This document shows, piece by piece, positions 8,462 through 55,876 of a stretch of DNA of 64,000 nucleotides (position 1 is its first letter; every line of letters starts with the position of its first letter). The translations under genes and the position numbers were made by a program. The notes under the pieces were generated by a model. The model did no database searches. It worked only from the letters and a program-made list of their open reading frames with translations, and was not told where the DNA came from. Origin of the DNA: Bradyrhizobium nitroreducens (lineage in GTDB: Bacteria > Pseudomonadota > Alphaproteobacteria > Rhizobiales > Xanthobacteraceae); contig NZ_LFJC01000003.1 in the NCBI RefSeq assembly GCF_002776695.1, forward strand, positions 4,698,896 through 4,762,895. Reading direction: 5' to 3'.

Positions 8462-8675
8462 GGGTTTCCTCTCCATAATTGACGCGTCTTGTCGCGCGGT
8501 TCACGGATGTGAGTGGGAGAGCTTCAGCAAGCGGTGTGCCAGCGCGAGACGTGTCCGAACTTGCGAGAAAGGGCTGGTTTGGAGCGGCAAGAGCCGATAT
8601 CCCGGGGCAGATGTCCGCGTCGTCGTCTCATTGTCGCGAGACGGCGTCTCGGCCGTGAGACGAGGACAGTTTCGC

Positions 8676-39656: not shown

Positions 39657-39669
39657 GCTCACGCCCGCA

Positions 39670-40915: not shown

Positions 40916-41452
40916 TCAGTTCATCATCGCGGCCGTCGGACGCTGGCTCTCGCTGGAGCCGATGATTCCCGGAAGGTCGGTCGCTTCGCCGGCGATCATG
41001 TGCGACATGCCCCAGAACAGGTGGGCGAGGCGGGAGAACACCATCCGCTCGCGCTCGGCGGGCAAGGTGCCATCGGGGATCGTCACCGTCTCGAGGCCGA
41101 CCACCTTCTTGAAGTCGGGCCAGATCGTCATCGACTGCGCGATCACGGAGTAGCAGCGGGGATCGTCGTCGCTCTCGTCGGGCGCCGGCGGCAAGCCCGG
41201 ATATTGCGTCGGCGTGGCGTAGAATTTGTACGCGCCATAGCCGAGCTTGAGCAGGAATTTCTCGGGCACGGCGACGTTGGCGGCGAAGGATACCAACCGC
41301 GCCTCGCTCAGCACGTCTGGCTCGATCGCGCTGAGGTCCGATGCGCGAAGCGCCGAGCAGAAGGCCAGATCGCGATTGTGCTCGCGGAGCAGATTGGCCA
41401 GCGGCTGCTGCTGTTGCACGGTGTCGGTGAGCAGGATGATGGTCTTGAGCAT
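40916..41452 (-). CDS. Formyltransferase-fold-like protein with altered active site
   Basis: 178 residues of uncertain function. SEARLVSFAANVAVPEKFLL then GYGAYKFYATPTQYPGLPP resembles the N-terminal formyltransferase fold (as in PurN, Fmt and sugar-amine formylases), where the corresponding text is typically an Asn-Phe-His-Pro block. Here Asn and His are replaced by Lys and Tyr, so formyl transfer is doubtful. Last gene of the leftward trio ahead of the flagellar genes. The gap to the glycosyltransferase-like gene is 13 bp. Confidence 0.6.
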   Translation of the reverse strand: MLKTIILLTDTVQQQQPLANLLREHNRDLAFCSALRASDLSAIEPDVLSEARLVSFAANVAVPEKFLLKLGYGAYKFYATPTQYPGLPPAPDESDDDPRCYSVIAQSMTIWPDFKKVVGLETVTIPDGTLPAERERMVFSRLAHLFWGMSHMIAGEATDLPGIIGSSESQRPTAAMMN

Positions 41453-41465
41453 CTTGAGGGGTCCC

Positions 41466-42845
41466 TCAGGGGAAGAGCTGGCGGGCGGTCATGGCCGCAT
41501 CGTCGCAGGCGTGGCTGGCGAAGAAATCGTTGGCGATACGCTGTCCCGGGGCGATCTCCAGGATGCGGTAGCGCGCGAGGCTCGCTGCTTCTCGCGCGGC
41601 ACCGACATCGTCCTGCCAGGCACAGAGCGACAGTTCGAGCCGGCCGTATCCGCCGCAATCGGCGGCATAGGCGCCGGTCACGGCCTCGACGGTCGCCGCC
41701 ACCGCACCCGCGTCGCTGGCCGAGACGTCGCGCAGGATCACGGCGATGCCGCTTCCGGTCGCGGCCTTCGAGGTCATCACCATGAAGGCGTCGCGGGCGC
41801 CGGTGCGACCGGCGCGGCGCGCCGTGCGCACGATGCTTGCGAAGCCGGGATCGGGACCGAGCTCCAGCGTCGTCGTCTGCTGGTCGTGCAGGATCGTCGC
41901 GCGCGAGGCGCCGAGGTCGCCCTTCAGCGCGTGATAGGAGCGCGGCAGCCAGACCGTATCGAGCGGCACCTGCGACGACGTCAGGCTCCAGGCCTGGTCC
42001 AGCAGATAGCCTTCCCAGACCGCGGGATAGGCGGCGGCCAGCTGTTGCCAGGCGCGAAGCAGCCGTTCCGCATGTGCGGAGCGACCGAGATAGAGCGTGC
42101 GCGCCGACATCTCCCAGCGGTTCCATTTGTGCAGGGCGACGTCGCAACCGAGGAAGGAGGACAGCAGGGGCGCCTCGCGTAAGACAGCGCCGGCCTCGAT
42201 GAATAGCAGCGGCTCGCGATATTTGTTCCACATCCGCACCATGAACTCCGCCTTCTCGAAGCAGAGCAGGCGGTCGTCGAGCTGGGTGTCGATCGCTTCG
42301 ATATGGCAATCGAGCTGCAGGCGTTCGAGCGAATGGCGGAGGCGGAGGGACGCGGCCGCGTCGGCGCCGCGCGGACGACAGGAGACGATCCGCGGCCGGA
42401 GGGCGGAGGCGTCCGCGGCGGCGAGGAATCTCGACCAGCCGATGCCGCCCCACCACATCTCGTGCGGGCCGTCCGCGCCGCAGGGGCCGACGGTGCCGAA
42501 TTCGGTCAGCTTGGATTTGAGGAAGTCGAAGCCGGGGTTTTCGCTTCGGGGAATGACGACGGCGCAGGCGGGATTGAGCGAACGGTAGAACAGCTCGGCC
42601 GCTGCGCCGCTCGGCGGTTCCTTCAGAATGATGACGCCGCCGTGCCGCCCGTCCGGGACGCCATCGAGCGTTGGCGCGCCGTATTGGCCGACCAGCCAGC
42701 CCAGCCGGTCGTGCTGGGCCCGGCCGAGCCGGACGCCGCCGGACTGCAGCAACTGATCAAGATTCGTCTGCGTCGCGTCCCGCAATTCCGTGCCCCCGGT
42801 TAAGCCCTTGGACTTCAACGGCCGGGGCGGCGCGATCAGGCGCAC
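41466..42845 (-). CDS. Glycosyltransferase-like protein of unknown specificity
   Basis: 459 residues. The middle (EPLLFIEAGAVLREAPLLSS then LGCDVALHKWNRWEM) resembles a nucleotide-diphospho-sugar transferase core, in which a DxD motif holds the metal; here it reads EAG, so activity is unproven. Near residue 360 a second segment (GIAVILRDVSASDAGAV) looks like a GT2-type N-terminus. The start is GTG and shares a base with the stop of the HAD-type gene (TAGTG), so the two are coupled. Assignment is tentative. Confidence 0.55.
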   Translation of the reverse strand: MRLIAPPRPLKSKGLTGGTELRDATQTNLDQLLQSGGVRLGRAQHDRLGWLVGQYGAPTLDGVPDGRHGGVIILKEPPSGAAAELFYRSLNPACAVVIPRSENPGFDFLKSKLTEFGTVGPCGADGPHEMWWGGIGWSRFLAAADASALRPRIVSCRPRGADAAASLRLRHSLERLQLDCHIEAIDTQLDDRLLCFEKAEFMVRMWNKYREPLLFIEAGAVLREAPLLSSFLGCDVALHKWNRWEMSARTLYLGRSAHAERLLRAWQQLAAAYPAVWEGYLLDQAWSLTSSQVPLDTVWLPRSYHALKGDLGASRATILHDQQTTTLELGPDPGFASIVRTARRAGRTGARDAFMVMTSKAATGSGIAVILRDVSASDAGAVAATVEAVTGAYAADCGGYGRLELSLCAWQDDVGAAREAASLARYRILEIAPGQRIANDFFASHACDDAAMTARQLFP

Positions 42846-45259
42846 TATTTGGGGTCGGCTTCGAGCGGGGTGATCGCGACGGAATAGACCGCGATTTCCT
42901 GCGTCATCGGGGCGACGGGGATCAGCAGGCAGCCGTCTTCAGCTTCGATGCGATAGTGGTCGCCATTCCGCTGCACGCCGGCAAAGATCAGCCCGTCGGT
43001 CGCGATCGCGGTCACGTTCTGGCTTTCGGCGGCGTCACGAAGGTCGTCGCCCCGCTGCATGGTCACGCCGTGAAGCAGTCCCTCGGGAGCGAATTTCGCC
43101 AGCGGCAGCGCGATCATGGTGATCGCCATGCGACGCGACAGGGGGACGCGCAGACGCAGCTCGCGGAGGCCGGTGCGATGGACGGTCACCGTCTCCAGCG
43201 TTGCATCGCCGCCGGTGCGGAATAGTCCGACCTGAGCTTGGCCGGCGGCCCGCTCCTCAAAGACGTCAGCGGGCAGGCGGTTGGCGCCGAACAGCACGTA
43301 GAGATAATTGTAGGATGGCGACAGGCCGGCGAAGCTGCCGGCGAGCCACATCGGCGGCGCGGCGGCCGTGCAGGCTGCCGAGAGGCCGCGGGCGGTGATC
43401 TGGTTGCGCACGAACTGCCGATCGAGCAATGGCGCGAGCGCGTGGGTGCCGAGATTGACGTCGTGCTTCAACGTGCCGAGCAGCGCCAGCTCGTCATCGT
43501 CGGGCAGCAGCAGAAGCCGGGCCAGCGTCGCCGCGCACCAGCGCGCGGCGACATCGGGCGCGGCATAGGGGGCGAGGTCATAGTCGCGCGCGACGCCGTC
43601 CGCGCTGCCTGCGAAAGCCAGCGCGCCGGCCTGGATCTCCGCGGCAAGCGCCACCTGCTCCGGCGGACGCGGATTGACTTCACGCAGCACCGCACCGCCG
43701 TCGTAATCGCGCACCGAGCCGTCGGCGGAGCAGCAGGCCTGCTCCAGGAGCGCGACGTTACGGATCAGCATGCGCTTGACGTGCGGCGTGACCACGAGGT
43801 CGGAGATGAAGCCTGCCGCGCTGTCCTCCCCGGCAACATCGTCGAAGGCGTCATCGAGCGACATCAGATAGGCGCCGTGGAGGCGGATCTTGATGCCTTC
43901 GAGGTCGAAGATGCGACGCAGCGCCTTCTGCACGCTGCCGGAATAGCCGAGATCGGCGATGACGAGGTCGGTGCAGTCGTCGAAGCCGGGGATTGCGTGA
44001 CGGAGATAGGCGAGCAGCCGGGCGCGCAGGCCCGCGGCGAGCGCGACGATTTCGGCCGGATCAATCAGTCCGGGAAGCGCCTCGGCGAGCTCCTCGCCGG
44101 AGGCGACGCCGCCGGGAAAAGCGGCAAAGAACGCCGTGACCTTTGGCGGCATGATCTTCACCATGTCGTGGAAGGTCGGCGCGTCGATCTTGAACACCTT
44201 TGCGAGCAGGTCGACCAGCGGCTGCATCGTGTCGGCCGAGGCGATCAGGCTGACGCGACGGTTGATCTCGAGATAGGCGGATGTCGGGCCGTGCAGCTCC
44301 TCCCGGATCCGGTGCGACAGAAACCCGTCACGGCCAAGAAAGCCGAGCGCGACCTGCCGGCCGGCACCTGCGATCTCCTGGCAACGCCGCGTCACGAAGG
44401 CGTCGAACGCGGCCATGACAGGGCCGAGCACGGTCAGCCCGAGGTGGAAGGCGTGAGATCTCTCGGCGCTGCGCGCGGCGACCATGCGCCGCAGGGTTCG
44501 CGCTCCATGATCGAGCCGCGATGGCGCGCCGGTGCACAGTAGCTCGAACATCGCCGTCTCACGCTGAAACTTCGAAGCCAGCTGCGCCGTCGCCTGCGGA
44601 TAATAGCGGGGATGAATGCCGTGGCGCTTTGCTCCCCTGATATCGGCCTTCTCATTGTCGCCGACGTGAAACGAGGCGGCGGCGTCAATTCCCTGCTCTG
44701 AGAGATAGGTGGCGAACAGGGCTTCGCTCTTGCCGGTGCCATGGTCGCAGGACGCATAGAGGAAGTCCCAGACCAGCCCGGGACGGCAAGCGCGCAGCAG
44801 CCGCGCCAGCCGGCCGCCGTCCCAATAGGTGTCCGAGATGAATCCGACACGATGGCCGGCGCGCTTCATGTCCAGATATTGCCCGAGCATGTCCGGGTTG
44901 GCGCGGCAGAGCTTGATCTCGGCGGTGAACTCGGCTTCGACCAGATCGTTCAGGTCCGCTCGCGAAAGGCCGAACAGCCTGAACGGAAAGCAGGAATAGA
45001 TCTCGCCGATGTGCACTTCGCTCGCGCCGCGTTTCTCCTTCGCGGTCCGGCGTGCACGCGATTCGGCCTGGATGCGATGTTGAACGAAACTCGCGGAAAC
45101 ATTCGGACAAGATCGTGAAATGCCCGATAGCTCGTAAGTCCTTTCAAATACGCCATCTGCCGTCGCGCATGCGCGCAGCAGAAACGTATCGAAAACATCG
45201 AACGACCAAGCAGAAACAATTTGCGCGCGGCGCTCCGCGCCGGCGGTAGCCGACTTCAT
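42845..45259 (-). CDS. Large HAD-superfamily protein (COG5610-like)
   Basis: 804 residues. The N-terminal third is a HAD hydrolase: motif I SFDVFDTFLL, motif II FISDTYW, a conserved lysine (GTGKSEALF), motif IV HVGDNEKADIRGA. The middle has GFLGRDGFLSHR and ADLGYSGSVQKALRRIF, blocks of the predicted-hydrolase group COG5610 often found in surface-polysaccharide clusters. The C-terminal 250 residues are beta-rich and unassigned. Likely a phosphatase or phosphotransferase in glycan or protein modification. It begins the leftward trio, diverging from the sigma-factor and flagellin genes. Confidence 0.75.
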   Translation of the reverse strand: MKSATAGAERRAQIVSAWSFDVFDTFLLRACATADGVFERTYELSGISRSCPNVSASFVQHRIQAESRARRTAKEKRGASEVHIGEIYSCFPFRLFGLSRADLNDLVEAEFTAEIKLCRANPDMLGQYLDMKRAGHRVGFISDTYWDGGRLARLLRACRPGLVWDFLYASCDHGTGKSEALFATYLSEQGIDAAASFHVGDNEKADIRGAKRHGIHPRYYPQATAQLASKFQRETAMFELLCTGAPSRLDHGARTLRRMVAARSAERSHAFHLGLTVLGPVMAAFDAFVTRRCQEIAGAGRQVALGFLGRDGFLSHRIREELHGPTSAYLEINRRVSLIASADTMQPLVDLLAKVFKIDAPTFHDMVKIMPPKVTAFFAAFPGGVASGEELAEALPGLIDPAEIVALAAGLRARLLAYLRHAIPGFDDCTDLVIADLGYSGSVQKALRRIFDLEGIKIRLHGAYLMSLDDAFDDVAGEDSAAGFISDLVVTPHVKRMLIRNVALLEQACCSADGSVRDYDGGAVLREVNPRPPEQVALAAEIQAGALAFAGSADGVARDYDLAPYAAPDVAARWCAATLARLLLLPDDDELALLGTLKHDVNLGTHALAPLLDRQFVRNQITARGLSAACTAAAPPMWLAGSFAGLSPSYNYLYVLFGANRLPADVFEERAAGQAQVGLFRTGGDATLETVTVHRTGLRELRLRVPLSRRMAITMIALPLAKFAPEGLLHGVTMQRGDDLRDAAESQNVTAIATDGLIFAGVQRNGDHYRIEAEDGCLLIPVAPMTQEIAVYSVAITPLEADPK

Positions 45260-45321
45260 GCTGCAATTCCCCGTCCACCAAGACGATTAACGCGCGCATG
45301 CGTCGAGTCAGGCGCCACAAA

Positions 45322-45338
45322 CGCGAAAAAAATTCGCG
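45322..45338. promoter_or_regulatory. CGCGAA-N5-TTCGCG palindrome upstream of the HAD gene
   Basis: The inverted half-sites CGCGAA (45322-45327) and TTCGCG (45333-45338) surround five A residues, about 65 bp before the HAD-type start. The same half-sites recur at 46487-46502 ahead of fliC. It may be a binding site for one regulator; this is inference. Confidence 0.4.
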
Positions 45339-45772
45339 CGTGATTCAAAAACGTGTTCGCCGCGACTGACAGATTCAAAAAAATCGCTAGGTTCGAAAAA
45401 GGTGATTCGGAAAAAATTGCCGAGTGCGAAAGCCGTCTCGCGTTCATTCACACTCGGAAACAATCGCTTCCTGATGCGCTGCGCGCGCGTCGCGTTTGAT
45501 CGCCTAGTGCCGCGTAATGTCAGCGTTTTCTCCCGCATGCATCTCTTCAGGATGGATGATCCGCCATGGCGCGAGACGATGTGATGATTGCAGACTTGAT
45601 GCGCGAGATGATCGCGCGGTCGGCAATTATTGCCCGATGCTCGGCAAAAGATACCGGCTAACTTCTTGAAAAATAACAAAAATTATCCGCCTGGATTGTT
45701 TGGCCCCTGCGTTCAACGCCTGGAAGCCGTGTGGCATGTGCGCGACCGGCATTGCAGGTTGGAGGTTGCGGG
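45326..45772. other. A-tract-rich 513-bp intergenic region before the sigma-factor gene
   Basis: Five A-runs lie at 45326-45332, 45347-45351, 45377-45383, 45396-45400 and 45411-45416; the first three are spaced close to two and three helical turns, so the DNA is probably curved. This is striking in so GC-rich a genome. No gene with a ribosome site is visible from 45,260 to 45,772. The last 130 bp includes CTTCTTGAAAAATAACAAAAATTATCC, AT-rich, which may be the sigma-factor promoter; no certain -35/-10 was set. Confidence 0.6.
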
Positions 45773-46471
45773 ATGAGTTACGCTGCTGATGTCTGGGCTC
45801 CCGCCGAGGCCGAGATGACGGCCATCGCGCCGGTCGATGCGATCGTGCCGGTGACGCCCTCGGTGCCGCTCGCGCCGGACAGCACGCCTGAGATGGCCGA
45901 CGTCGTCTACGACGAGGACAGCGAGCTTCTCGACAAGCTCGCGACCGGAGACGAAGCCGCCTTCCGCACATTGGTCGAGCGTCACATCGATCGCGCCTAT
46001 GCGATCGCGCTGCGCATCGTCGGCAACGCGGCGGACGCCGAGGACGTGGTTCAGGACACCATGCTCAAGATCTGGAGTCATCGCGGGCGCTGGCAGCACG
46101 GCCGCGCCAAGTTCTCCACCTGGCTCTACCGCGTCATCTCCAACCGTTGCATCGATCTGCGCCGCAAGCCGCGCAACGAGAATGTCGAGACGGTGCCTGA
46201 GGTCGCCGACAGTCAGCCCGGCGCCGTCGAGATCATCGAGCGCAACGAGCTGAACGGCATGCTGGAGCTCGCGATGCAGCGCCTGCCCGAGCAGCAGCGC
46301 ATCGCGGTGATCTTCTCGTATCATGAGAACATGAGCAACGGCGAGATCGCCCAGGTGATGGACACCACGGTGGCCGCCGTCGAGTCGCTGCTCAAGCGCG
46401 GACGCCAGCAGCTCCGTCAATTGCTGCGCAAGCACGAACGCGACATCCGCACCGCGTTTACCGATTGCTAA
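45773..46471 (+). CDS. ECF-type RNA polymerase sigma factor
   Basis: 232 residues. After a Pro/Val-rich leader of about 45 residues comes region 2 (VVQDTMLKIWSHRGRW, FSTWLYRVISNRCIDLRR) and region 4 (RLPEQQRIAVIFSYHENMSN then GEIAQVMDTTVAAVESLLKRG), the two domains of extracytoplasmic-function sigma factors. It probably directs expression of nearby genes. ATG 45773 has GGAGG seven bases upstream. It lies 143 bp before fliC, and the leftward HAD operon shares the upstream region. Confidence 0.9.
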   Translation: MSYAADVWAPAEAEMTAIAPVDAIVPVTPSVPLAPDSTPEMADVVYDEDSELLDKLATGDEAAFRTLVERHIDRAYAIALRIVGNAADAEDVVQDTMLKIWSHRGRWQHGRAKFSTWLYRVISNRCIDLRRKPRNENVETVPEVADSQPGAVEIIERNELNGMLELAMQRLPEQQRIAVIFSYHENMSNGEIAQVMDTTVAAVESLLKRGRQQLRQLLRKHERDIRTAFTDC

Positions 46472-46486
46472 CCATAAAATTTGCTC

Positions 46487-46502
46487 CGCGAAAATTTTCG
46501 CG
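46487..46502. promoter_or_regulatory. 16-bp perfect palindrome between sigma factor and flagellin genes
   Basis: CGCGAAAATTTTCGCG, 15 bp after the sigma-factor stop. It shares the half-sites CGCGAA and TTCGCG with the site at 45322-45338. No T-run follows, so an operator is more likely than an intrinsic terminator. Confidence 0.45.
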
Positions 46503-46614
46503 CCTGATCTGCTTGCGCTCCGCCGTTTGAGCGAACGGACGGGGCTGCGGTCCGCGTCGTCGTAAGTCGATCTTCACGATGCGGCACGCCTGCCCATCAG
46601 CACAGGAGCTACCA

Positions 46615-47439
46615 ATGCCCGCAATCAACACCAACACCGCCGCCAATGCCGCGGTCCGCTACCTCAACGTCAACTCGGCGCAGGAGAGCAGCTCGCTCTC
46701 GAAGCTGTCGAGCGGCTCGCGCATCACCTCGGCATCCGACGACGCCGCGGGTCTTGCGATCTCCACGCGCATCTCCTCGGACGTGACCACGCTGCAGCAG
46801 GCTGCGACCAACGCTTCGCAGGCCACCGCGATCCTCCAGACCGCCGACGGCGGCGCCTCGAACATCTCCGACATTCTCGCGCGCATGAAATCGCTGGCCT
46901 CCGAGTCCGCCTCGGGCACCACGACCGATTCCAGCCGCGCCTACATCCAGTCGGAATTCTCCCAGCTCAATTCCGAAATCGACTCGATCGCGACCGGCAC
47001 CCGCTACTCCAGCCAGAGCCTGCTCGACGGATCCAGCGTGTTCTCGTCCGGCGTGTCCGTGCTGGTCGGCTCGGACGGCTCCGACACCATCAACATCACG
47101 CTGACCAGCCTCACGGCGTCCTCGCTCGCCGTCACCTCGCTCGACGTCAGCACCCAGTCCGGGGCAACGTCTGCGCTCGACGCCCTCGATACCGCGATCG
47201 ACACGGTCTCCGCCGCGCGCGCCTCGATCGGCGCCCAGGAATCGCGCTTCAACTTCTCGTCCGATTCGATTTCGACCCAGACGCAGAACCTCCAGTCGGC
47301 AAACTCCGCGATCAAGGACGTGGATATCGCGGCCGAGCAGTCCAAGCTGTCTTCAGCCGAGGTGAAGACCCAGGCGGCCGTGTCGGCGCTCGCTGCCGCC
47401 AATCAGATGCCGCAGTACCTCCTCAAGCTGCTGAGCTGA
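46615..47439 (+). CDS. fliC: Flagellin
   Basis: 274 residues, a short flagellin. Conserved N-terminal D0/D1 (INTNTAANAAVRYLNVNSAQ, LSKLSSGSRITSASDDAAGLAIS) and C-terminal helices (AIKDVDIAAEQSKLSSAEVKTQAAVSALAAANQMPQYLLKLL) flank a small Ser/Thr-rich centre. The product is secreted by the flagellar export system and polymerised into the filament; its Ser/Thr wealth would suit O-linked modification. ATG 46615 has AGGAG upstream. A strong hairpin follows. Confidence 0.94.
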   Translation: MPAINTNTAANAAVRYLNVNSAQESSSLSKLSSGSRITSASDDAAGLAISTRISSDVTTLQQAATNASQATAILQTADGGASNISDILARMKSLASESASGTTTDSSRAYIQSEFSQLNSEIDSIATGTRYSSQSLLDGSSVFSSGVSVLVGSDGSDTINITLTSLTASSLAVTSLDVSTQSGATSALDALDTAIDTVSAARASIGAQESRFNFSSDSISTQTQNLQSANSAIKDVDIAAEQSKLSSAEVKTQAAVSALAAANQMPQYLLKLLS

Positions 47440-47448
47440 TGATCAACT

Positions 47449-47477
47449 GATCGGGCCGGCATGATGCCGGCCCGATC
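47449..47477 (+). terminator. Strong hairpin after the flagellin gene
   Basis: GATCGGGCCGGCAT and ATGCCGGCCCGATC make a 12-14 bp perfect stem with a loop of about five bases, followed by pyrimidine-rich CTCTCTGTC. It would end or reduce transcription before fliD, which fits a far higher need for flagellin than for the cap. Confidence 0.75.
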
Positions 47478-47498
47478 CTCTCTGTCGGGGACAAGCAA

Positions 47499-49190
47499 GT
47501 GGCCAGCGTCAGTTCGAGCACCAGCAGCACAAGCACGACTTCCTCGGGCGTGTCGGTCACGACGAGCGGAACCACCAATTCGAGCAGCATCGATTGGACG
47601 GCGCTGATCCAATCCGCCGTCGACGCGAAGACCGCGCAGGCGGACACGATCTCGACCACGATTACGAACAACGAGGCCAAGATCTCGGCCTATCAAACGC
47701 TCCAGACCGATCTGAAGACGTTATCGTCGGGGCTGGCCTCGCTATCGACCGCCGTAGTCAACTCTCTGTCCACCAGTGCCTTTGCGGCGCGCGCGGCGAG
47801 CATCAGTTCCACCGGCGACGTGAGCGCCTCGTCGGCGCTCTCCATGACGCTCAAGAGCGCGGCCGCGACCGGCGACCACACGCTCACGATCAGTCAGCTG
47901 GCCGCCGCTCAAAAGGTTTCCGGCGCCTCGCAATCCAGTCAGACCGACGAACTCGGATATTCGGGCACGTTTTCCATCGGTCTGGAGGGCGGTGCTACGT
48001 CCGATATCACCATCACCAGCACAATGTCGCTTCAGGACGTCGTCGATGCCATCAATGCCCAGACCTCGACCACCAACGTCCAGGCCTCGATCGTCCAGGT
48101 CTCCAGCACGTCGTTCCAGATGGTGCTGACGGGTACGGAGGATGCCGCCGACATCACTTATTCGAGCACGTCCGGCGACGACATCCTGAACAAGCTCGGC
48201 GTGACCGACAGTTCGGGGAGCTTCACCGACGTGCTTCAGGAGGCGCAGGCCGCCGAGTTCACGCTCGACGGCATCGCGATGACCCGCGACACCAACGACA
48301 TCTCGGACGTCCTGAGCGGGGTTACCTTCAGCCTGCTCCAGAGCACGCCGGACGGAACGACGCTGAATATCAGCATCGAGACCGATACCAGCCAGATCCA
48401 ATCGACGCTGGAGACGTTCGTCACCAACTACAACGCATTTCGCGACGAGGTGATTGGCCAGCAGGCGACCTCGACAGACGGTACCGCGGATTCGAGCGCG
48501 GTGCTGTTCGGCGATGGCACCATGCGCAACATCATGGATGCGCTGCAGAACGCATTGAACTCGACCGTGGGCGGCCTGACCATGGCCGATCTCGGCCTGT
48601 CCTTCAACGAGAGCAATGAACTCGAACTGGACACCAGCACGCTGTCGGACATCCTGAGTACGAACCTGAGTGGCGTGACCAAGCTGTTGTCTGCACAGAC
48701 CACGACGTCGTCGAGCCAACTCAGTGTCGTCAATACCGGAACGTCGCCGCAATCCTTCACTCTGGATCTGGCCGTCGATTCCGACGGCAACCTCACCTCG
48801 GCGTCGGTCGGCGGGGACTCGTCGCTGTTCACGGTCAGCGGCACCACGATCATCGGCGCTTCCGGCTCGATCTATGCCGGCATGGCCTTCACCTATAGCG
48901 GCTCGACCTCGCAGTCGATCTCGGTGACGTCGACCTCGGGCATCGCGACGCAGCTCTATCGGCTTGCAAAGGACTACTCATCCTCGACCGGCGTGCTGCA
49001 AACGCAGATTACCAGCCTGACGACCCGCGACGATGAGCTTCAACAGAAGGTTGACGACATCAACAGCGCAGCGTCGACCCTGCAGTCGCAGCTCGAGACG
49101 CAATACGCGAAGTACCAGGCGGCGATCGAGAGCGCCAACAGCACGCTCAACTATCTCAAGGCCCTGCTCAATTCCAGCTCGAGTAACTGA
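47499..49190 (+). CDS. fliD: Flagellar filament cap protein
   Basis: 563 residues with an extremely Ser/Thr-rich leader (SVSSSTSSTSTTSSGVSVTT), the hydrophobic DW-type contact helix (SSIDWTALIQSAVDAKTAQAD), FliD N and C domains (FTLDGIAMTRDTNDISDVL, MADLGLSFNESNELELDTS) and a C-terminal coiled coil (QQKVDDINSAASTLQSQLE). It caps the growing filament and helps fold flagellin. Start codon is GTG; no clean ribosome site was seen. Two bases separate it from fliS. Confidence 0.92.
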   Translation: MASVSSSTSSTSTTSSGVSVTTSGTTNSSSIDWTALIQSAVDAKTAQADTISTTITNNEAKISAYQTLQTDLKTLSSGLASLSTAVVNSLSTSAFAARAASISSTGDVSASSALSMTLKSAAATGDHTLTISQLAAAQKVSGASQSSQTDELGYSGTFSIGLEGGATSDITITSTMSLQDVVDAINAQTSTTNVQASIVQVSSTSFQMVLTGTEDAADITYSSTSGDDILNKLGVTDSSGSFTDVLQEAQAAEFTLDGIAMTRDTNDISDVLSGVTFSLLQSTPDGTTLNISIETDTSQIQSTLETFVTNYNAFRDEVIGQQATSTDGTADSSAVLFGDGTMRNIMDALQNALNSTVGGLTMADLGLSFNESNELELDTSTLSDILSTNLSGVTKLLSAQTTTSSSQLSVVNTGTSPQSFTLDLAVDSDGNLTSASVGGDSSLFTVSGTTIIGASGSIYAGMAFTYSGSTSQSISVTSTSGIATQLYRLAKDYSSSTGVLQTQITSLTTRDDELQQKVDDINSAASTLQSQLETQYAKYQAAIESANSTLNYLKALLNSSSSN

Positions 49191-49192
49191 CG

Positions 49193-49618
49193 ATGAACAA
49201 TCCGATGGCGTACATGGCCAATCAGGCCTATCGGGGAGCGGCAACCAGCGTGCCGCCGCTCAAGGCGGTGTCGATGCTGCTGGGTGGCGCGATTACCTTC
49301 CTCCAGAAGTCGTTGAATGCCCAGGAGGGGCGGCGCTTCGAGGAGGGACACGAGCACCTGATGAAGGCGACCGCGATCCTGCGCGGGCTGAGCCACAATC
49401 TCGATTTTACCAGAGGCGGGGCTGTGGCGGAACGGATGTTCCAGACCTACAACGCCCTGATCCTGGCGAGCCTCAAGGCTTACGGCCGGCCGCATGCCCG
49501 GGAGAGTTTTCGGCGGATCATCGCCGGACTGACCGAACTGCGGGAGGCCTGGGAGTCCGTCGATGCGACGTTGCGGAGCAGCAAGGCCGGCGCGGCCGAT
49601 TCGGCCCGCTCGGGCTGA
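49193..49618 (+). CDS. fliS: Flagellin export chaperone
   Basis: 141-residue all-helical chaperone. MAYMANQAYRGAATSVPPL and MLLGGAITFLQKSLNAQEG and the later HLMKATAILRGLSHNLDF are FliS traits. It binds the flagellin C-terminus and prevents early polymerisation. It follows fliD by two bases, presumably coupled. The C-terminal extension is short and Ala/Ser-rich. Confidence 0.88.
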   Translation: MNNPMAYMANQAYRGAATSVPPLKAVSMLLGGAITFLQKSLNAQEGRRFEEGHEHLMKATAILRGLSHNLDFTRGGAVAERMFQTYNALILASLKAYGRPHARESFRRIIAGLTELREAWESVDATLRSSKAGAADSARSG

Positions 49619-49622
49619 AGAG

Positions 49623-49643
49623 GTCCCTTCTTTCGCATTGAAG
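49623..49643 (+). terminator. Hairpin after fliS
   Basis: CCCTTC and GAAGGG pair over a nine-base loop, directly after the fliS stop. A weak candidate; no T-run follows. Confidence 0.35.
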
Positions 49644-49777
49644 GGAAGGGCAGCCTGCCGTTTCGACTGCTTTCCGTAGTGCTGCGGGCGCTTTTGGTGC
49701 CCAAAGCCGCCGAAATCCGGTTTCCGCCTCGTTCGCAATGCTTTATGACGGCCTTAACAAGGCGGGACCGGCGGGCG

Positions 49778-50050
49778 ATGGACGTCACCGAGTTTGAGGA
49801 ACTGATCGACCGGCTGGGCGAGGATCTGTCCCTCTGGCCCGACGATCGCCGCTTGCCCGCCGAAGAGCTGCTGGCGCACTCGTCCGCTGCGCAAGCCCTG
49901 TTGGAAGAGGCGCGCGCCTTGCGCCTCGCGCTTGCAGCTCCACCGGTCCGTGCCCCCAAAGGGCTAGCCGACCGCATCGTTGCTGCCGCTGCGAGAATGA
50001 AGGGCGACACTGCCGAGCCGCGCACCGAGGGCGAGACGGCGGAGAGCTGA
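49778..50050 (+). CDS. Small hypothetical protein with LWP motif
   Basis: 90 residues: DVTEFEELIDRLGEDLSLWP then a helix with ALLEEARALRLALAAPPVRA and ADRIVAAAARM. Small proteins of this composition occur next to ECF sigma factors in alphaproteobacteria and are thought to be sigma-associated; here the nearest sigma gene is 3.3 kb upstream, beyond fliCDS. Function is not known. ATG 49778 is preferred to the earlier in-frame ATG 49745 because it begins the conserved part. Confidence 0.6.
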   Translation: MDVTEFEELIDRLGEDLSLWPDDRRLPAEELLAHSSAAQALLEEARALRLALAAPPVRAPKGLADRIVAAAARMKGDTAEPRTEGETAES

Positions 50051-50120
50051 ACGGCGCCATCCGCAGCCTCCTGTCTTCGCCTCTCTGCAGTTGCGACAGC
50101 TGCTGCAGATCGCGAGAGGT

Positions 50121-50200
50121 CGTCATGCCCGGACCTGTCCCAGGCATCCACGTAACCCACTCAGAAAGTCGTGGATGGCCGGGTCAAGCCCGGCCGCGGC
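50121..50200. repeat. Dispersed palindromic repeat, family B copy 2
   Basis: CGTCATGCCCGGACCTGTCC, CATCCACG and GTGGATGGCCGGGTCAAGCC match the copy at 4507-4629 in order and sequence with some changes. It sits in the 421-bp gap between the LWP protein and flgD; the rest of that gap shows no gene. Confidence 0.72.
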
Positions 50201-50471
50201 GTTGCGGAAACGTCGGCGTCCCGGACATCATCTCGCATGCGATTGCTTTGTCGCGAGCGCAGAGAGCGGGGCAGCTTCCTGGCAACAGATTAGCCTGACA
50301 TCGCTCTTCTGACGCGCACGCACACGGCAGATTTTGCCGTGTCGAATGCCGCTTTCGCGCGCGTGAATCCCCGCCTGAATCCGCGCGCCCACCCGTTTCA
50401 TCAGCACACAGATTTCAAGCGCCGCCGACCAACACCTGGTCGCAGGCAGCGCGGGAAAGCCGGAGTTTCTG

Positions 50472-51137
50472 ATGACCGTTTCCGCAACGAGCTCTGCGAC
50501 GACTGCGACCACGACGACGTCGTCGTCGAGCACGTCGTCCAATTCGACGCTGACGTCCAGCGATTTCCTGAGCCTGCTCGTCAGCGAGCTCCAGAACCAG
50601 AATCCGCTGGATGCGACCTCGACCACCGACCTCGTCAATCAGCTCACCTCCTACGCGAATTTCACCTCCCAGCAGTCGATCAACTCCAACCTTACTTCGC
50701 TCGCGAGCTCGTTCTCCAGCCTCGTGACGCTGAATTCGGTGAACTACATCGGCCACACCGTCGAGGCGAAGACGGATACCTCGACGCTGAGCAACGGCTC
50801 GGCGACGTTCGGCTACTCGCTGTCCTCGACAGCGTCCGACGTCTCGATCAGCATCTCGGATTCCTCCGGCAACGTCGTCTACACGGGGACCGGGACCGGC
50901 AATTCCGGCTCCAACAGTTTCACCTGGGACGGCAAGGACTCCAGCGGCAACCAGCTCTCCGACGGCGGTCAGTACACGATCTCGGTGACCGCGACGAATT
51001 CCTCCGGCAATTCGGTCCTCAACTACACGACCGTCACCGGCACGGTGACCGGCATCGACACCTCGACCTCGACACCCTCGCTGACCGTGAACGGCGTCTC
51101 CGTCAGCGCCGCCAACATCATCGGCGTCACATCCTGA
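50472..51137 (+). CDS. flgD: Flagellar hook assembly scaffold protein
   Basis: 221 residues. After a Ser/Thr-rich leader the hook-capping domain is clear: SDFLSLLVSELQNQNPLDAT and DLVNQLTSYANFTSQQSIN, then a Tudor/Fn3-like domain (FTWDGKDSSGNQLSDGGQYTI). It caps the hook while FlgE polymerises. Ribosome site CCGGAG. The leader is more Ser/Thr-rich than usual for FlgD. Confidence 0.93.
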   Translation: MTVSATSSATTATTTTSSSSTSSNSTLTSSDFLSLLVSELQNQNPLDATSTTDLVNQLTSYANFTSQQSINSNLTSLASSFSSLVTLNSVNYIGHTVEAKTDTSTLSNGSATFGYSLSSTASDVSISISDSSGNVVYTGTGTGNSGSNSFTWDGKDSSGNQLSDGGQYTISVTATNSSGNSVLNYTTVTGTVTGIDTSTSTPSLTVNGVSVSAANIIGVTS

Positions 51138-51156
51138 TTTCTTCCGGAGTTTTATC

Positions 51157-52422
51157 ATGAGTCTCAGCGGCGCATTATCCTCGGCGATCTCGGCGCTCAG
51201 TGCGCAGAGCCAGTCCCTGTCGATGATCAGCGACAACATCGCCAATTCCGACACGACCGCCTACAAGACGACGTCCGGGATGTTTGACGCGCTCGTGACG
51301 GCGTCGAGCAACACGACCTCTTACGCCTCGGGCGGCGTCACCGTCTCGGGCCGCGCCAACATCACCCAGCAGGGCCTGCTGGCTGCGACTTCCAACGCCA
51401 CCGACGTCGCGATCCAGGGCTCCGGGTTTTTCGTGGTGACCAATGCCATGTCGGGCGGCACCGTCGCCTACACCCGCAACGGTGCCTTCACCACCGACAA
51501 TGCCGGCTATCTCCAGAACAACGGCTATTATCTCGAGGGATGGCGCACCGACGCCGACGGCAATGTCGTCGGCAGCGAGTCGGCGAGCAATCTCGAACCG
51601 ATCAATACCCAGGTCGCCTCGACCAGCGGCAGTGCCACGACCAAGACCACGATTGCGGCCAACTTGCCGTCGGATGCGGCCACCGGCGATACCTATACCA
51701 GTTCGATGACGGTCTACGATTCGCTCGGCGCCGCGAACTCGATGCAGATCACCTGGTCCAAGACCGGCACCAACAGCTGGAGTGCGAGCTTCGCCAACCC
51801 GACCTCAACCTCGGATACCACCACCGCGACGGGCACGGCTTCCGGCACGATCGACATCACTTTCAACAGCGACGGCTCGCTCGCCAGTACCAGCCCGGAC
51901 CCGGCGACCGTCTCGATCACAGGCTGGACCGATGGCGCGGCCAACAGCACGATCACCATGGATCTCGGTACCGCCGGCAAGACCGATGGCCTCACGCAAT
52001 ATGCCTCCGGCGAGACCACGCCGTCCGTCAACGTCACCAGCATCGACTCCGACGGCCTGTCCTACGGCAAGCTGTCCAGCATCGCGATCGGCGATAACGG
52101 CGTGGTCAACGCCACCTATTCCAACGGTCAGACCATCGCGATCTACAAGATCGCGGTGGCGACCTTCGCCGCTCCCAACGGGCTCGCCGCTTCCAGCGAC
52201 GGGATCTATTCGGCGACCGTGACGTCGGGCAATGCCGCGTTGCAGGCCTCCGGCGAGAACGGCGCGGGCACCATCTTCGGCAGCGAACTGGAGTCCTCGA
52301 CCACCGACACCAGCAGCCAGTTCTCCAGCATGATCTCGGCGCAGCAGGCCTATTCGGCGGCGTCCCAGGTCATCTCGACCGTCAACAAGATGTACGACAC
52401 CCTGATCTCGGCGATGAGGTGA
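51157..52422 (+). CDS. flgE: Flagellar hook protein
   Basis: 421 residues. The N-terminal rod motif (MSLSGALSSAISALSAQSQS, then SDNIANSDTTAYKTTSGMF) and C-terminal (ISAQQAYSAASQVISTVNKM) pair, with GSGFFVV and a large Ser/Thr-rich outer domain, identify the hook subunit. It polymerises into the hook after export. CCGGAG is upstream. Nineteen bases after flgD. Confidence 0.93.
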   Translation: MSLSGALSSAISALSAQSQSLSMISDNIANSDTTAYKTTSGMFDALVTASSNTTSYASGGVTVSGRANITQQGLLAATSNATDVAIQGSGFFVVTNAMSGGTVAYTRNGAFTTDNAGYLQNNGYYLEGWRTDADGNVVGSESASNLEPINTQVASTSGSATTKTTIAANLPSDAATGDTYTSSMTVYDSLGAANSMQITWSKTGTNSWSASFANPTSTSDTTTATGTASGTIDITFNSDGSLASTSPDPATVSITGWTDGAANSTITMDLGTAGKTDGLTQYASGETTPSVNVTSIDSDGLSYGKLSSIAIGDNGVVNATYSNGQTIAIYKIAVATFAAPNGLAASSDGIYSATVTSGNAALQASGENGAGTIFGSELESSTTDTSSQFSSMISAQQAYSAASQVISTVNKMYDTLISAMR

Positions 52423-52686
52423 GTGGTGCGCAGTGAGGAATCCAGGGATGCCGGAGAGGGGTTGCTGCGTCGGCTGCAACGGCTGGTGGCGCGGGCCACG
52501 ACCGTCAGGGGCCGCGACCGCAGGCAACTGCTAGCACTGATCGACGAGGTCGAGACGGCCCGCCGCGGCCTGTTGCGGGAGTGCGCGGAGATCGAGAGCG
52601 AGATGAGGCAAGCGACCGTCAGGAAGAGCGCGATCGGGGCTTACCTGCGTAACGCGCAGGTAAGCCGCGGCAGACGGACTAACTAG
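52423..52686 (+). CDS. Small basic helical protein between flgE and flgN-like gene
   Basis: 87 residues; GTG start immediately abuts the flgE stop, so it is translated by coupling. It is strongly helical and charged (LLRRLQRLVARATTV, RQLLALIDEVETARRGLLR, IESEMRQATVRKSAIGAYLRN). The size and position would suit a flagellar export chaperone or FliT/FlgN-like helper; sequence similarity is not strong enough to name it. Confidence 0.55.
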   Translation: MVRSEESRDAGEGLLRRLQRLVARATTVRGRDRRQLLALIDEVETARRGLLRECAEIESEMRQATVRKSAIGAYLRNAQVSRGRRTN

Positions 52687-52695
52687 AAGAAGGCG

Positions 52696-53157
52696 ATGAC
52701 CATGACTGTAGCCAAAGCCACGAGAACGAGCGCTGCACACGGCGACACGCGGATCAAGTCGCTGATCGCGCTCATCGACGTTCTGACCGCGCTGGTCGCC
52801 GAGGAGAATGTGGAGCTCGCCAAGGGCCTGCCGGCCTCGCGCCTGAAGCAGGTCGACGAGAAGAACCGCCTGGCGGAGATGTTCGAACGGACCGTTGCCG
52901 AGTGCGCGGCGGGTACGACCAGCCTGAACGTCCCGGACCGGATCCTGCGCGAGCAGCTGATGGAGCGGATCCTGAAGCTGCGCGCGGCGATGGACGAGAA
53001 CCTGGTGCGCCTGCGCGCGGCGATCGAGGCCAGCAACCGCCGGATCGAGGCCGTCATGCAGGCGATCCGCGAGCAGATCGCGGCGGTGTCGCCCTATGGC
53101 GCCTCCGGCCGGGTCGCGGCGCGCCCCGTCTCCAGCGGCACCAGCCGCAGCGCCTGA
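52696..53157 (+). CDS. FlgN-like flagellar export chaperone
   Basis: 153 residues, helical. IKSLIALIDVLTALVAEENVEL is close to the N-terminal helix of FlgN, with a later long helix pair (LMERILKLRAAMDENLVRLR, AAIEASNRRIEAVMQAIREQ). FlgN holds FlgK and FlgL before export; both genes follow. ATG 52696 and ATG 52702 are both possible; the second has AGAAGG at a better distance. Confidence 0.7.
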   Translation: MTMTVAKATRTSAAHGDTRIKSLIALIDVLTALVAEENVELAKGLPASRLKQVDEKNRLAEMFERTVAECAAGTTSLNVPDRILREQLMERILKLRAAMDENLVRLRAAIEASNRRIEAVMQAIREQIAAVSPYGASGRVAARPVSSGTSRSA

Positions 53158-53175
53158 CGAGTCGAGGATCCCGCC

Positions 53176-54951
53176 GTGTCACTCAATATCGCACGATCGA
53201 TCGCCTTCAGCGGGCTGTCGGCCACGTCGGTGCAGATCAGCGTGACGTCGTCGAACATCTCGAACGCCGACACGACGGGCTACACCGCGAAGACCGCCAG
53301 CCAGTCGAGCAGCGTCACCAACGGTGTCGGCACCGGCGTCACCGTGACCGGCATCACCTCGACGGTCGACAAGCTGCTGTTGAAGTCGCTGGTCGGGGCA
53401 ACCTCCGACCTCGGATCGGCCGATACGACCAACACCTATCTGACCTCGCTCGAAAAGCTCTACGGCTCGACCAGCAGCAGTGGCGACAGCTCCACGGGAA
53501 CCTCGCTCGCGAACAGCATCGCCTCGCTGGAATCGGCGCTATCGTCGTTGGCGAGCACGCCGAGCAGCGCCTCGCTGCAATCCAACGTCATCAGCGCGCT
53601 CGACGACGTCGCGAGCCAGTTGCGGGAGACATCGAGCGGCATCCAGAAGCTGCGCTCCGACGCCGACCAGGACATCTCGTCCTCGATCGACGAAGTGAAT
53701 GGGGATCTGGAGCAGATCGCGGATCTCAACGCTGCGATCAAGCAGACGGCGGCGGCCGGCCAGTCGACCGCGGACCTGGAGGACCAGCGCAACACCGCGC
53801 TCCAGGACGTCGCCTCCAAGATGAACATCAGCTATTTCACGGCGTCGAACGGCGATCTCCAGATCTATACCACGTCCGGCCAGGCGCTGGTCGACAGTTC
53901 GGCGCACGCGATTAGCTATACCGCCGCGGCCAACGTGACGGCGTCGACGACTTACACCGCCGGCTCGTCGTCGAGCGGCTTCAGCGCGATCACGGTGAAC
54001 GGCGTCGATATCACCTCCCAGATATCGGGCGGCGACATCGGCGCGCTCGTCACGCTCCGCGACAAGACCCTGCCGGCGGCGCAGTCCCAGCTCGACCAGC
54101 TCGCACAGCAGCTCGCCTCGGCCATGAACAGCGTCTCGAACGGCGCCTCTTCGGTGCCGGCGCCCACCAGCCTGACCGGTACGACTGCCGTCACCAGTAG
54201 CACGGCGCTCTCCGCCACCGGCACGGTGCGCATCGCCGCCACCGACCAGAGCGGCAATCTGGTCTCCTACGGTGATCTCGACCTGTCGTCCTATGCCACG
54301 GTCGGCGATCTCGTCACCGCGATCAACGGCATCTCCGGACTCTCCGCGTCGGTCGATTCGGACGGTCATCTCTCGATCACGGCGACCGGCTCCGGCAATG
54401 GCGTCGCCATCAACGAGATGACGAGCTCGGTGGGAAGCTCCGGCGAAGGGTTTTCGGAGTATTTCGGTCTCAACGACTTGGTAACTGGAACGAGCGCTTC
54501 GGATATCGCGGTCAACAGCAAAATCCTGTCCGGGACCAACGAGCTTCAGCTCGCGACACTGGACTCCTCCTCGAGCCTGACGGTCGGCGGTTCGGTGCTG
54601 TCGTCGGGGTCTGCCACCGTCGTCAATGCCTTCTACGATGCCTTGACGGAGTCCCGGACATTTTCCTCCACCGGCGGGCTCGCCGCCACCACCGGCTCCC
54701 TCGCCGATTACGCCTCGGCCGTCGTCTCCGACGTCGCGAGCAAGTCGTCGCAGGCCTCCACCAACTACACCGCCAAGGAGACCGCGCAGTCGACCTATGC
54801 GAACTCGCTGTCGTCGCAGTCGGGCGTCAACCTGGACGAGGAGTCGGCGAAGCTCAGCACGCTCCAGAACAAATATTCGGCAGCTTCCGCGCTGATCCAG
54901 GCCATCAACTCGATGTATTCGTCGCTGCTCTCCGCCGTGCAGTCGACATAG
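53176..54951 (+). CDS. flgK: Flagellar hook-associated protein 1
   Basis: 591 residues. N-terminal SLNIARSIAFSGLSATSVQI then SSNISNADTTGYTAKTA and C-terminal SGVNLDEESAKLSTLQNKYSA with AALIQAINSMYSSLLSAV-type helix are standard FlgK. The centre is highly Ser/Thr-rich. It forms the hook-filament junction. GTG start; GAGGATC lies upstream. Confidence 0.94.
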   Translation: MSLNIARSIAFSGLSATSVQISVTSSNISNADTTGYTAKTASQSSSVTNGVGTGVTVTGITSTVDKLLLKSLVGATSDLGSADTTNTYLTSLEKLYGSTSSSGDSSTGTSLANSIASLESALSSLASTPSSASLQSNVISALDDVASQLRETSSGIQKLRSDADQDISSSIDEVNGDLEQIADLNAAIKQTAAAGQSTADLEDQRNTALQDVASKMNISYFTASNGDLQIYTTSGQALVDSSAHAISYTAAANVTASTTYTAGSSSSGFSAITVNGVDITSQISGGDIGALVTLRDKTLPAAQSQLDQLAQQLASAMNSVSNGASSVPAPTSLTGTTAVTSSTALSATGTVRIAATDQSGNLVSYGDLDLSSYATVGDLVTAINGISGLSASVDSDGHLSITATGSGNGVAINEMTSSVGSSGEGFSEYFGLNDLVTGTSASDIAVNSKILSGTNELQLATLDSSSSLTVGGSVLSSGSATVVNAFYDALTESRTFSSTGGLAATTGSLADYASAVVSDVASKSSQASTNYTAKETAQSTYANSLSSQSGVNLDEESAKLSTLQNKYSAASALIQAINSMYSSLLSAVQST

Positions 54952-54964
54952 GAGGCAGTGGGAC

Positions 54965-55876
54965 ATGGTGGCGATGCGGGTCGCGACCTTCGCGCAGTCG
55001 AGCAAGATGATCTCCGACGCACTGCGCGTGCAGGCGGTGATGGCCGAGAAGCAGGTCCAGGAATCGTCGGGCATCATCTCGAGCGATCTCGGCGGCTACG
55101 GCTCGGACGCCCAGCACGTCGTCAACCTCCAGGTCTCGGTGACGCGCGCGCAGTCCTATATCGACGCCGCGACGCTCGCCGACAGCAAGGTGCAGGTGAT
55201 GTATTCGGCGGTCGGCTCCATGACCGACATCATCACTCAACTTCGCTCCCAGCTCAGCGCCGCCTCGACCGGAAGCTCGACCGAGACGACCTCGGTGATC
55301 AGCTCCGCCCAGCAGATGCTGGAGGAGATGGGGTCGATCATGAACACCCAATATGACGGCCAATATGTCTTTGCCGGCGGCAAGACGGACACGGCCCCGG
55401 TCGATCTCACGAGCTTTTCGTCGGGGACGGGGTCCCTCACCACGGCGGACAGCAGCTACTACGCTGGCGACGACGAGATCGCCTCGGTGCGTGTCGGTGC
55501 CGGTGAAACCGTCTCCTATGGTGTCACCGCCGACAATTCGGCGTTCGAGGAGGTGATGCGTGTGCTGAAATTCGTGGCCAACAGCACCTCGCTCTCATCC
55601 GCGGACATCTCCAGCGCGCTCGATCTTGCCGGCACTGCGCTCGACGACACGGCAGCCGTGCAGGCGAAGCTTTCCAGCGCGGCGTCCTCGATCGAGACGG
55701 CCAGCGCCCGCCAGAGCGACTACAAGAGCTATGCCGAGACGTTGTCGAGCGACCTCACCAGCGTCGACGTCGCCGCCATCACGGCGGAGCTCTCGACCTA
55801 CGAGTCGCAACTGACTGCGTCCTATTCGGCGCTTGGCAAGATCCTGAGTCTGAACCTTGCGAGCTATCTGAAATAG
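54965..55876 (+). CDS. flgL: Flagellar hook-associated protein 3
   Basis: 303 residues with flagellin-like ends: MRVATFAQSSKMISDALRVQ then QVQESSGIISSDLGGYG, and a C-terminal helix (AAITAELSTYESQLTASYSA). It joins FlgK to filament. AGGAGGCAG lies upstream, 13 bp after flgK. Last gene of the flagellar run; converges with the acyl-CoA synthetase. Confidence 0.93.
   Translation: MVAMRVATFAQSSKMISDALRVQAVMAEKQVQESSGIISSDLGGYGSDAQHVVNLQVSVTRAQSYIDAATLADSKVQVMYSAVGSMTDIITQLRSQLSAASTGSSTETTSVISSAQQMLEEMGSIMNTQYDGQYVFAGGKTDTAPVDLTSFSSGTGSLTTADSSYYAGDDEIASVRVGAGETVSYGVTADNSAFEEVMRVLKFVANSTSLSSADISSALDLAGTALDDTAAVQAKLSSAASSIETASARQSDYKSYAETLSSDLTSVDVAAITAELSTYESQLTASYSALGKILSLNLASYLK

Follow-up and report, generated by a model that had tools for sequence, protein, structure and literature searches.

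The DNA analysed here (the window) is a stretch of 64,000 nucleotides from Bradyrhizobium nitroreducens (contig NZ_LFJC01000003.1, positions 4,698,896 to 4,762,895). It carries three leftward genes, all with open reading frames (ORFs) between 40916 and 45259, that are divergent from an extracytoplasmic function (ECF) sigma factor gene and a set of hook and filament genes on the other strand. The first of the three encodes a protein of 804 residues which, as judged by profile and structure model, is a relative of the two-domain ribofuranosyltransferases that use phosphoribosyl pyrophosphate (PRPP). The second encodes a glycosyltransferase-like protein (GT), and the third, P178, is a degenerate formyltransferase-like protein of 178 residues. 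The three are read here as a modification cassette of an RpoE6-type regulon in which the 804-residue protein most likely transfers ribofuranose onto a glycan carried by flagellin or other axial proteins, a reading given a probability of about 0.6. The parts are of known kinds; what is new is the union of a predicted ribosyltransferase, linkage to flagellin and a promoter tie.

A Predicted Ribofuranosyltransferase

None of the three leftward proteins of the window scores above any Pfam or NCBIfam family cut-off. A profile built from 17 relatives of the 804-residue protein (A1) and searched against solved structures matched the ribofuranosyl transferase of Thermobacillus composti (PDB 7shg) with E 9.9e-40, over positions 11-235 (the HAD part) and 290-606 (the phosphoribosyltransferase part), and Bcs3, the capsule polymerase of Haemophilus influenzae type b, with E 1e-34. 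The same two proteins are the top two Foldseek matches of the predicted structure (Bcs3 E 4e-14, 7shg E 6e-11). Comparison of the model with VIA gave Z 22.5 for 7shg (root-mean-square deviation, rmsd, 16.7 over 481 aligned residues) and Z 21.9 for Bcs3 (rmsd 7.8 over 556), the next entry reaching Z 11.5; these comparisons say nothing on the C-terminal domain. By Foldseek and VIA alike, the protein has the overall fold of the PRP-gPRT enzymes, which pair a phosphoribose phosphatase with a glycan phosphoribosyltransferase.

The residues expected of such an enzyme are also present. CrpP, the HAD domain of Bcs3, keeps just the first Asp of motif I, D386, and the CriT domain uses D680 and E818, while PRPP is flanked by R679 and R708 (PMC10299916). 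In the window protein the nucleophile Asp of the HAD phosphatase is D21, within FDVFDT; the Asp two positions later is absent, so only the first motif-I Asp is kept, as in CrpP. The A1 alignment equates D21 with D386, D311 with D680, R310 with R679 and R334 with R708 (residue numbers in the PDB chain of Bcs3 are 3 higher than in the paper), which supplies the acidic residue and both PRPP-binding arginines of CriT. R310, R334 and D436 are invariant in A1 and D311 nearly so. The phosphoribosyltransferase domain aligns with residues 302-631 of 7shg, and with Bcs3 merely up to profile position 424. In 7shg an Asp stands opposite D436, which may be the equivalent of CriT E818. All long copies with the C-terminal domain are in genomes that carry an RpoE6-type sigma factor; in the model, confidence is low at residues 599-668.

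Given the agreement of profile, fold and residues with 7shg and Bcs3, ribofuranosyl transfer from PRPP is the best functional reading of the protein. The predicted sugar is ribofuranose from PRPP because the protein is a relative of enzymes that join a phosphatase to a phosphoribosyltransferase. An earlier note on this DNA had labelled the protein as a HAD of the COG5610 type; the HAD part is real, and the whole protein adds the phosphoribosyltransferase domain seen in the 7shg and Bcs3 matches. A plain surface-glycan HAD phosphatase was dropped as a candidate, since the second domain also matches PRPP-dependent ribofuranosyltransferases. For brevity the gene is called the HAD gene below.

Linkage with Flagellar Genes

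In a family sample of 198 genomes, the window's own included, the 804-residue protein has any match in 19 genomes and a full-length one in 15; genera are not independent samples in these and the following counts. The nearest named records come from B. frederickii, B. huanghuaihaiense and others, and full-length matches from Bradyrhizobium share 66-90% identity with the protein. Eleven of the 15 full-length copies are divergent from sigma-fliC, and four lie elsewhere (G009, G053, G096, G100). The remaining four of the 19 genomes hold shorter homologues elsewhere (G043, G067), a remnant in the locus (G005) or a weak match (G177). The sigma factor, scored above the cut-off of NF009190, is present in 26/198 genomes, including all 15 with a full-length copy, and 11 family genomes have it without such a copy. 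GT has matches in 21 genomes, 19 of them adjoining sigma; the two unlinked ones are partial, in a protein that also has a methyltransferase part (G079, E 2e-19), or weak (G042, E 7e-4). P178 matches were found in 24 genomes. The earlier note allowed that the trio might commonly be found away from flagellar genes in related genomes: for the HAD gene (11/15 linked) and GT (19/21) this is not the case, and for P178, with 9 matches at the locus and 15 elsewhere, it is.

A collection of named records gave 28 loci, with sigma and fliC in 27 and a divergent HAD gene in 26. The exceptions are a Magnetospirillum metagenome-assembled genome (L140), where the HAD gene is behind flgL, and a locus that ends with its contig (L139). 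Together with the 11 divergent family copies, these loci uphold the tie of the cassette to flagellar genes that the earlier note had proposed.

In a class-wide set, 31/385 genomes match the profile of the 804-residue protein at E ≤ 0.001. Five further genomes with a single match spanning more than 600 profile positions were examined (G240, G342, G441, G237, G531). The order in G240 is HAD-sigma-fliC-fliC-fliC-fliD-fliS. In G342 and G441 the homologue adjoins fliC, motA, motB and hook-type genes, and the RpoE6-type sigma is absent. No filament gene was recognised in the 20 kb scanned around the homologues of G237 and G531, nor in the 20 kb surrounding the partial matches of G219 and G474; another contig of G237 carries sigma-fliC-fliD-fliS-flgD-flgE-flgK-flgL. 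The sigma scores of G237 (268 bits) and G240 (273 bits) are below the NF009190 cut-off of 303.

Several loci vary around this arrangement. In L089 (G005) a 96-residue remnant of the ribosyltransferase gene (8397-8687) lies between GT and sigma, an apparent loss. In L203 (G096) the divergent slot beside sigma-fliC is filled by a family-2 glycosyltransferase gene (10776-11945), and in two scanned genomes of genus g10 by a pyruvate-oxidoreductase gene, which means that not every genus uses the slot for modification. In two genomes of family f14 (L211, L212) a homologue that ends before the C-terminal domain adjoins a Methyltransf_24 gene, fliC and motAB; these are possibly a separate recruitment to flagella.

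Selection on the genes was followed as the ratio of nonsynonymous to synonymous substitution (dN/dS) among Bradyrhizobium. Medians are 0.21 for the HAD gene, 0.21 for GT, 0.17 for P178, 0.15 for sigma and 0.11 for fliC (24, 21, 24, 24 and 23 sequences; L135, L136 and short ORFs were left out).

Promoter-Like Sites

In Azospirillum brasilense RpoE6 drives fliC2 from CGCCAG-N16-CGTGAG, mapped by 5'RACE and deletion (PMC12826043). The form CGCCTG-N15-17-CGTT has five matches in the window, all in the cluster, with 1.05 expected; only 1 of 100 shuffles reached five. They lie before the HAD gene, GT, sigma, fliC and flgD (Table 1). Across loci, the motif was taken as CGCC[TA]G-N15-17-CGT within 450 bases, and the window itself was not counted. 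It stands upstream of the HAD gene in 38/40 loci, at -54 to -79; three pairs of contigs are duplicates (L074/L112, L075/L124, L076/L135), which makes this 35/37 distinct loci. The misses are the HAD remnant of L089 and L209. The same motif lies within 250 bases upstream of 9/563 other predicted genes of the loci and its looser CGCCNG form upstream of 37/563, a background against which the HAD gene stands out as carrying an RpoE6-type promoter sequence. The motif is also upstream of fliC in 48/56 loci, a count that includes one far-upstream match (L212, -347), and of sigma in 34/55, which includes other ECF sigmas (L106, L107) and a far-upstream match (L081, -427).

Two HAD copies away from filament genes have the motif as well, in G096 at -53 and, as the CGCCAG form, in G237 at -48. 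Three g10 genomes have just CGCCCG before the HAD gene, a form that also precedes their own fliC; they add little, because the looser form precedes other genes too (up to two others per locus). A count of CGCCTGN{16,17}CGTTNA over the whole genome was uninformative (19 matches vs 11 in the reversed control). The distribution of the motif suggests that the cassette belongs to an RpoE6-type regulon and would be under the control of the ECF sigma factor.

The Glycosyltransferase-Like Protein

GT has no Pfam or NCBIfam match, and the best hit of its profile among solved structures (E 0.9) is not credible. Its predicted structure has a confidence score (pLDDT) of 57 and superposes on a PBCV-1 glycosyltransferase over residues 149-315 (Z 12.7, rmsd 3.5, 159 aligned); a metal-independent bacterial glycosyltransferase also ranks high among the fold matches. 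In one distant relative (L113), Nucleotid_trans is matched below threshold (E 9e-4). On this low-confidence model the protein may have a GT-A-like fold. It lacks the DxD metal site of GT-A enzymes, having EAG in its place. This motif change, pointed out earlier, is real; to read it as a special catalytic change is unwarranted, since the full DxD is found in just 4/25 family members (the first position is Asp or Glu in 23/25). The GT alignment A3 omits the G169 copy, whose coordinates ran into a stop.

The reading frames of the HAD gene and GT overlap by one base (TAGTG), as had been noted, and the overlap is literally present in the sequence. True coupling is doubtful because GT has its own promoter-like site, which at 42817-42842 falls in the first codons of the overlapping reading, just behind the HAD stop. 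In 19/25 named loci the GT start chosen by script is 27-65 bases past that stop. Translational coupling through the overlap is considered unlikely on these two grounds, and the true start is probably near TTG 42785, behind a G-rich stretch, rather than at GTG 42845.

P178

The family profile of P178 (A2), searched against solved structures, matched ArnA with E 2e-6. Three of three relatives tested, all longer proteins, are above the PF00551 cut-off; the window protein itself has no Pfam match. Formyltransferases use Asn, His and Asp as catalytic residues. In the window protein YNFH has become YKFY and RVDxGPIV has become WPDFKKVV, so that all three are lost, the Asp motif in addition to the altered Asn-x-His motif that had already been noticed. 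Motifs and tail are also lost in two close relatives and in G170 and G043, and some P178-like copies elsewhere vary too (L066, L067, L069); YNFHPG and VDxG are intact in the relatives G114, G095, G127 and G080. Since the motif residues are lost here while intact relatives exist, P178 looks like a non-catalytic remnant or partner, and not like the enzyme with new chemistry that had been suggested. An active formyltransferase in this lineage was dropped on the same ground. The altered protein is still kept by selection, as its median dN/dS shows.

P178 relatives also occur in a conserved non-flagellar setting in genus g26 (ten loci, L094-L098, L100-L103 and L105). Nine of the ten share genes that in L095 encode a KaiC-like ATPase and a response regulator, and all ten share the gene that in L095 encodes a POR/DUF6537 protein.

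Proposed Role and Alternatives

In the reading favoured here, the ECF sigma factor, when active, would induce its own gene along with fliC, flgD and the genes of the ribosyltransferase and GT. Because one sigma factor would switch the filament genes and both enzymes jointly, modification would be timed with filament assembly. The GT-A-like protein would most likely lay down or extend an acceptor sugar on axial proteins, and the 804-residue protein would cap or branch this sugar with ribofuranose in the cytoplasm, before export. P178, no longer a catalyst of formyl transfer, would probably act as a binding or scaffold partner. A variant, held to be quite unlikely, is that the 804-residue protein puts ribose or phosphoribose from PRPP directly on Ser or Thr of axial proteins, with the C-terminal domain as recognition module, GT extending the sugar and P178 docking.

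A number of observations weigh against the favoured reading. To date neither a sugar nor an added mass has been observed on this flagellin. Both structure models are of modest confidence (pLDDT 65 for the 804-residue protein, against 57 for GT). At the position of D311 7shg carries Glu, and D436 has no direct alignment to Bcs3 E818; a single-fragment search placing E818 gave nothing. Five of 17 long copies are away from filament genes (G237, G009, G053, G096, G100). The 38/40 count hinges on the use of alignment-based start codons; when the most upstream starts from the ORF caller are taken instead, the motif precedes the HAD gene in just 9/25 loci (fliC 19/33, GT 10/21 in the same count). The motif is before GT in 0/7 loci that have GT without the HAD gene; it is missing before the HAD gene of L209 and, at the usual distance, before fliC of G237. 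The p3 record of A. brasilense has no relative of the HAD protein or GT within 12 kb of its flagellin, so the enzymes that modify FliC2 there differ or lie elsewhere; since the stretch also yielded no sigma, fliD or fliS, the test is a weak one.

The characterised relatives in the accessible literature act on polysaccharides, and one homologue (L208) adjoins cytidylyltransferase- and TylF-type genes, both as expected if the cassette makes a ribofuranose-containing surface polysaccharide, such as a side chain of lipopolysaccharide or capsule, whose only tie to the filament is joint induction. This is thought unlikely: none of the three genes encodes a flippase, polymerase or exporter, and proteins of the 804-residue type adjoin filament genes in three arrangements, in Xanthobacteraceae, L209 and the Magnetospirillum locus. 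The two f14 homologues without a C-terminal match likewise adjoin fliC and motAB. That such a tie is plain neighbourhood inheritance with no functional meaning has in its favour that most loci are from Bradyrhizobium or its family and their counts are not independent. It is hardly probable at all, as the tie persists over three gene orders and the promoter motif stays with the relocated gene, strictly in two genomes.

A change of substrate in the 804-residue protein is distinctly improbable too. It would now transfer another group or have become a factor in filament assembly, and glycosylation would no longer be the task of the linked genes. In favour of this, the fold alignment shows only about 15% identity to the solved enzymes, the added C-terminal domain has no assigned role and the motif residues of the partner P178 are gone; against it, both sets of key residues are kept, many columns are invariant and selection on the gene is evident (dN/dS 0.21).

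Layout of the Locus

ORFs and family models agree with the earlier placement of three leftward genes facing an ECF sigma factor and fliC. The features are collected in Table 1.

Table 1. Genes, protein domains and promoter-like sites of the locus (window positions)
Feature	Position	Strand	Remarks
P178, degenerate formyltransferase-like, 178 residues	40916-41452	-	motif N, H, D lost
GT, glycosyltransferase-like	41466-42845	-	459 residues as ORF; GT-A-like core at residues ~149-315
Promoter-like site before GT, just past HAD stop	42817-42842	-	CGCCTG-N15-17-CGTT
Predicted bifunctional ribofuranosyltransferase, 804 residues	42845-45259	-	HAD phosphoribose phosphatase + glycan phosphoribosyltransferase + extra C-terminal domain
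C-terminal domain, residues ~610-804	42848-43432	-	in 17/17 long copies from searched genomes
Phosphoribosyltransferase domain, residues ~290-606	43442-44392	-	R310, D311, R334, D436
HAD phosphatase domain, residues ~12-228	44576-45226	-	nucleophile D21; K177, D201 invariant
Promoter-like site before HAD gene	45289-45314	-	CGCCTG-N15-17-CGTT
Promoter-like site before sigma gene	45688-45713	+	CGCCTG-N15-17-CGTT
ECF sigma factor, RpoE6 type	45731-46471	+	NF009190, 423.5 bits vs cut-off 303
Promoter-like site before fliC	46501-46527	+	CGCCTG-N15-17-CGTT
fliC, small flagellin	46579-47439	+	PF00669 + PF00700
fliD	47499-49190	+	PF07195, PF02465
fliS	49193-49618	+	PF02561
Promoter-like site before flgD	50372-50397	+	CGCCTG-N15-17-CGTT
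flgD	50472-51137	+	NF005176, E 1e-34, under its cut-off
flgE	51157-52422	+	NF004242, 642 bits
flgN-like	52696-53157	+	PF05130, E 3e-4, under cut-off
flgK	53176-54951	+	TIGR02492, 347 bits
flgL-like	54965-55876	+	best model NF006489 (named flagellin), 412.7 bits; FlgL model TIGR02550 under its cut-off

The exported flagellar proteins are rich in Ser and Thr, as remarked earlier: 26-43% in FliC, FliD, FlgD, FlgE, FlgK and FlgL vs 8-14% in ten other measured proteins of the window. Across loci, FliC has 30% Ser and Thr where both the HAD gene and GT are present (33 loci), 29% with GT only (8 loci) and 24% with neither (8 loci), a trend that is confounded by kinship and unused as proof; rows for other flagellins (L002-L008), most of them in wrong frames, were left out of use.

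No export-gate gene adjoins the hook-filament set (46579-55876), and the two flhA genes of the genome are at 4.40 and 6.77 Mb, with the window at 4.70-4.76 Mb; the filament may for this reason borrow a base. A small ORF between fliS and flgD (49679-50050) has no Pfam match, and ORFs of the same cluster occur there in 16 fetched loci (15 genomes). Judged by position, it could be a candidate anti-sigma factor like Asf6. On the other side of the cassette (38490-40914) are genes which we take to be acyl-CoA dehydrogenase- and CoA-transferase-like. They adjoin the cassette here and in many named Bradyrhizobium loci, and are probably chance neighbours.

Novelty and Significance

The PRPP-using ribofuranosyltransferases were recently defined and act on capsules and O antigens, according to the accessible parts of PMC10299916 and PMC12096443. 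If the proposed role is right, such enzymes extend to filament proteins, and there is a concrete sugar, donor and mass to seek. In the accessible literature, judged by titles and abstract starts, no study of these three genes and no report of ribofuranose on bacterial flagellin was found; earlier mention of flagellar copies is possible. What this flagellin and sigma factor do in the symbiont genus has yet to be described, as stated in the discussion of PMC12826043. Under the proposal, decoration of flagellin would be connected with an ECF sigma factor and with the supply of PRPP, and this could bear on plant perception of rhizobial flagellin. P178, an altered formyltransferase kept by selection, offers a case in which to study the change from enzyme to partner.

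Comparison with Known Systems

In 7shg and the PRP-gPRT enzymes, as here, a HAD phosphatase is followed by a phosphoribosyltransferase in one chain; the 804-residue protein differs in carrying a further domain of about 190 residues at its C-terminus and in being linked to flagellin. Bcs3 has the CrpP and CriT domains in the same order, with the equivalents of D386, D680 and R708. Unlike the 804-residue protein, in which neither is matched, it adds CroT and an SH3b domain, and it makes capsule.

Flagellin glycosylation loci of the pseudaminic or legionaminic acid type likewise have sugar enzymes beside flagellin, but the sugar predicted here is different, a pentose from PRPP.

The RpoE6-FliC2 cluster of A. 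brasilense shares with the window the type of sigma factor, the set of filament genes and the form of the promoter. Its synteny with Bradyrhizobium has been pointed out, and FliC2 is 56% identical to the B. japonicum protein (PMC12826043). The paper's account of gene order names only flagellar, sigma and hypothetical genes, and neither HAD nor formyltransferase turned up as a term in its text. FliC2 appears as two forms, of 28 and 35 kDa, the larger of which stains for glycan (PMC12826043), which gives support to glycosylation of this type of flagellin.

Ribose on the glycan of a surface protein, the feature proposed here, has a parallel in Clostridioides difficile. The S-layer O-glycan of strain SLCT-11 has a ribose branch, and an orf4 mutant is without ribose (PMC6254364). 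That system differs in that it belongs to a Gram-positive S-layer and has alpha-ribose on a long repeating glycan.

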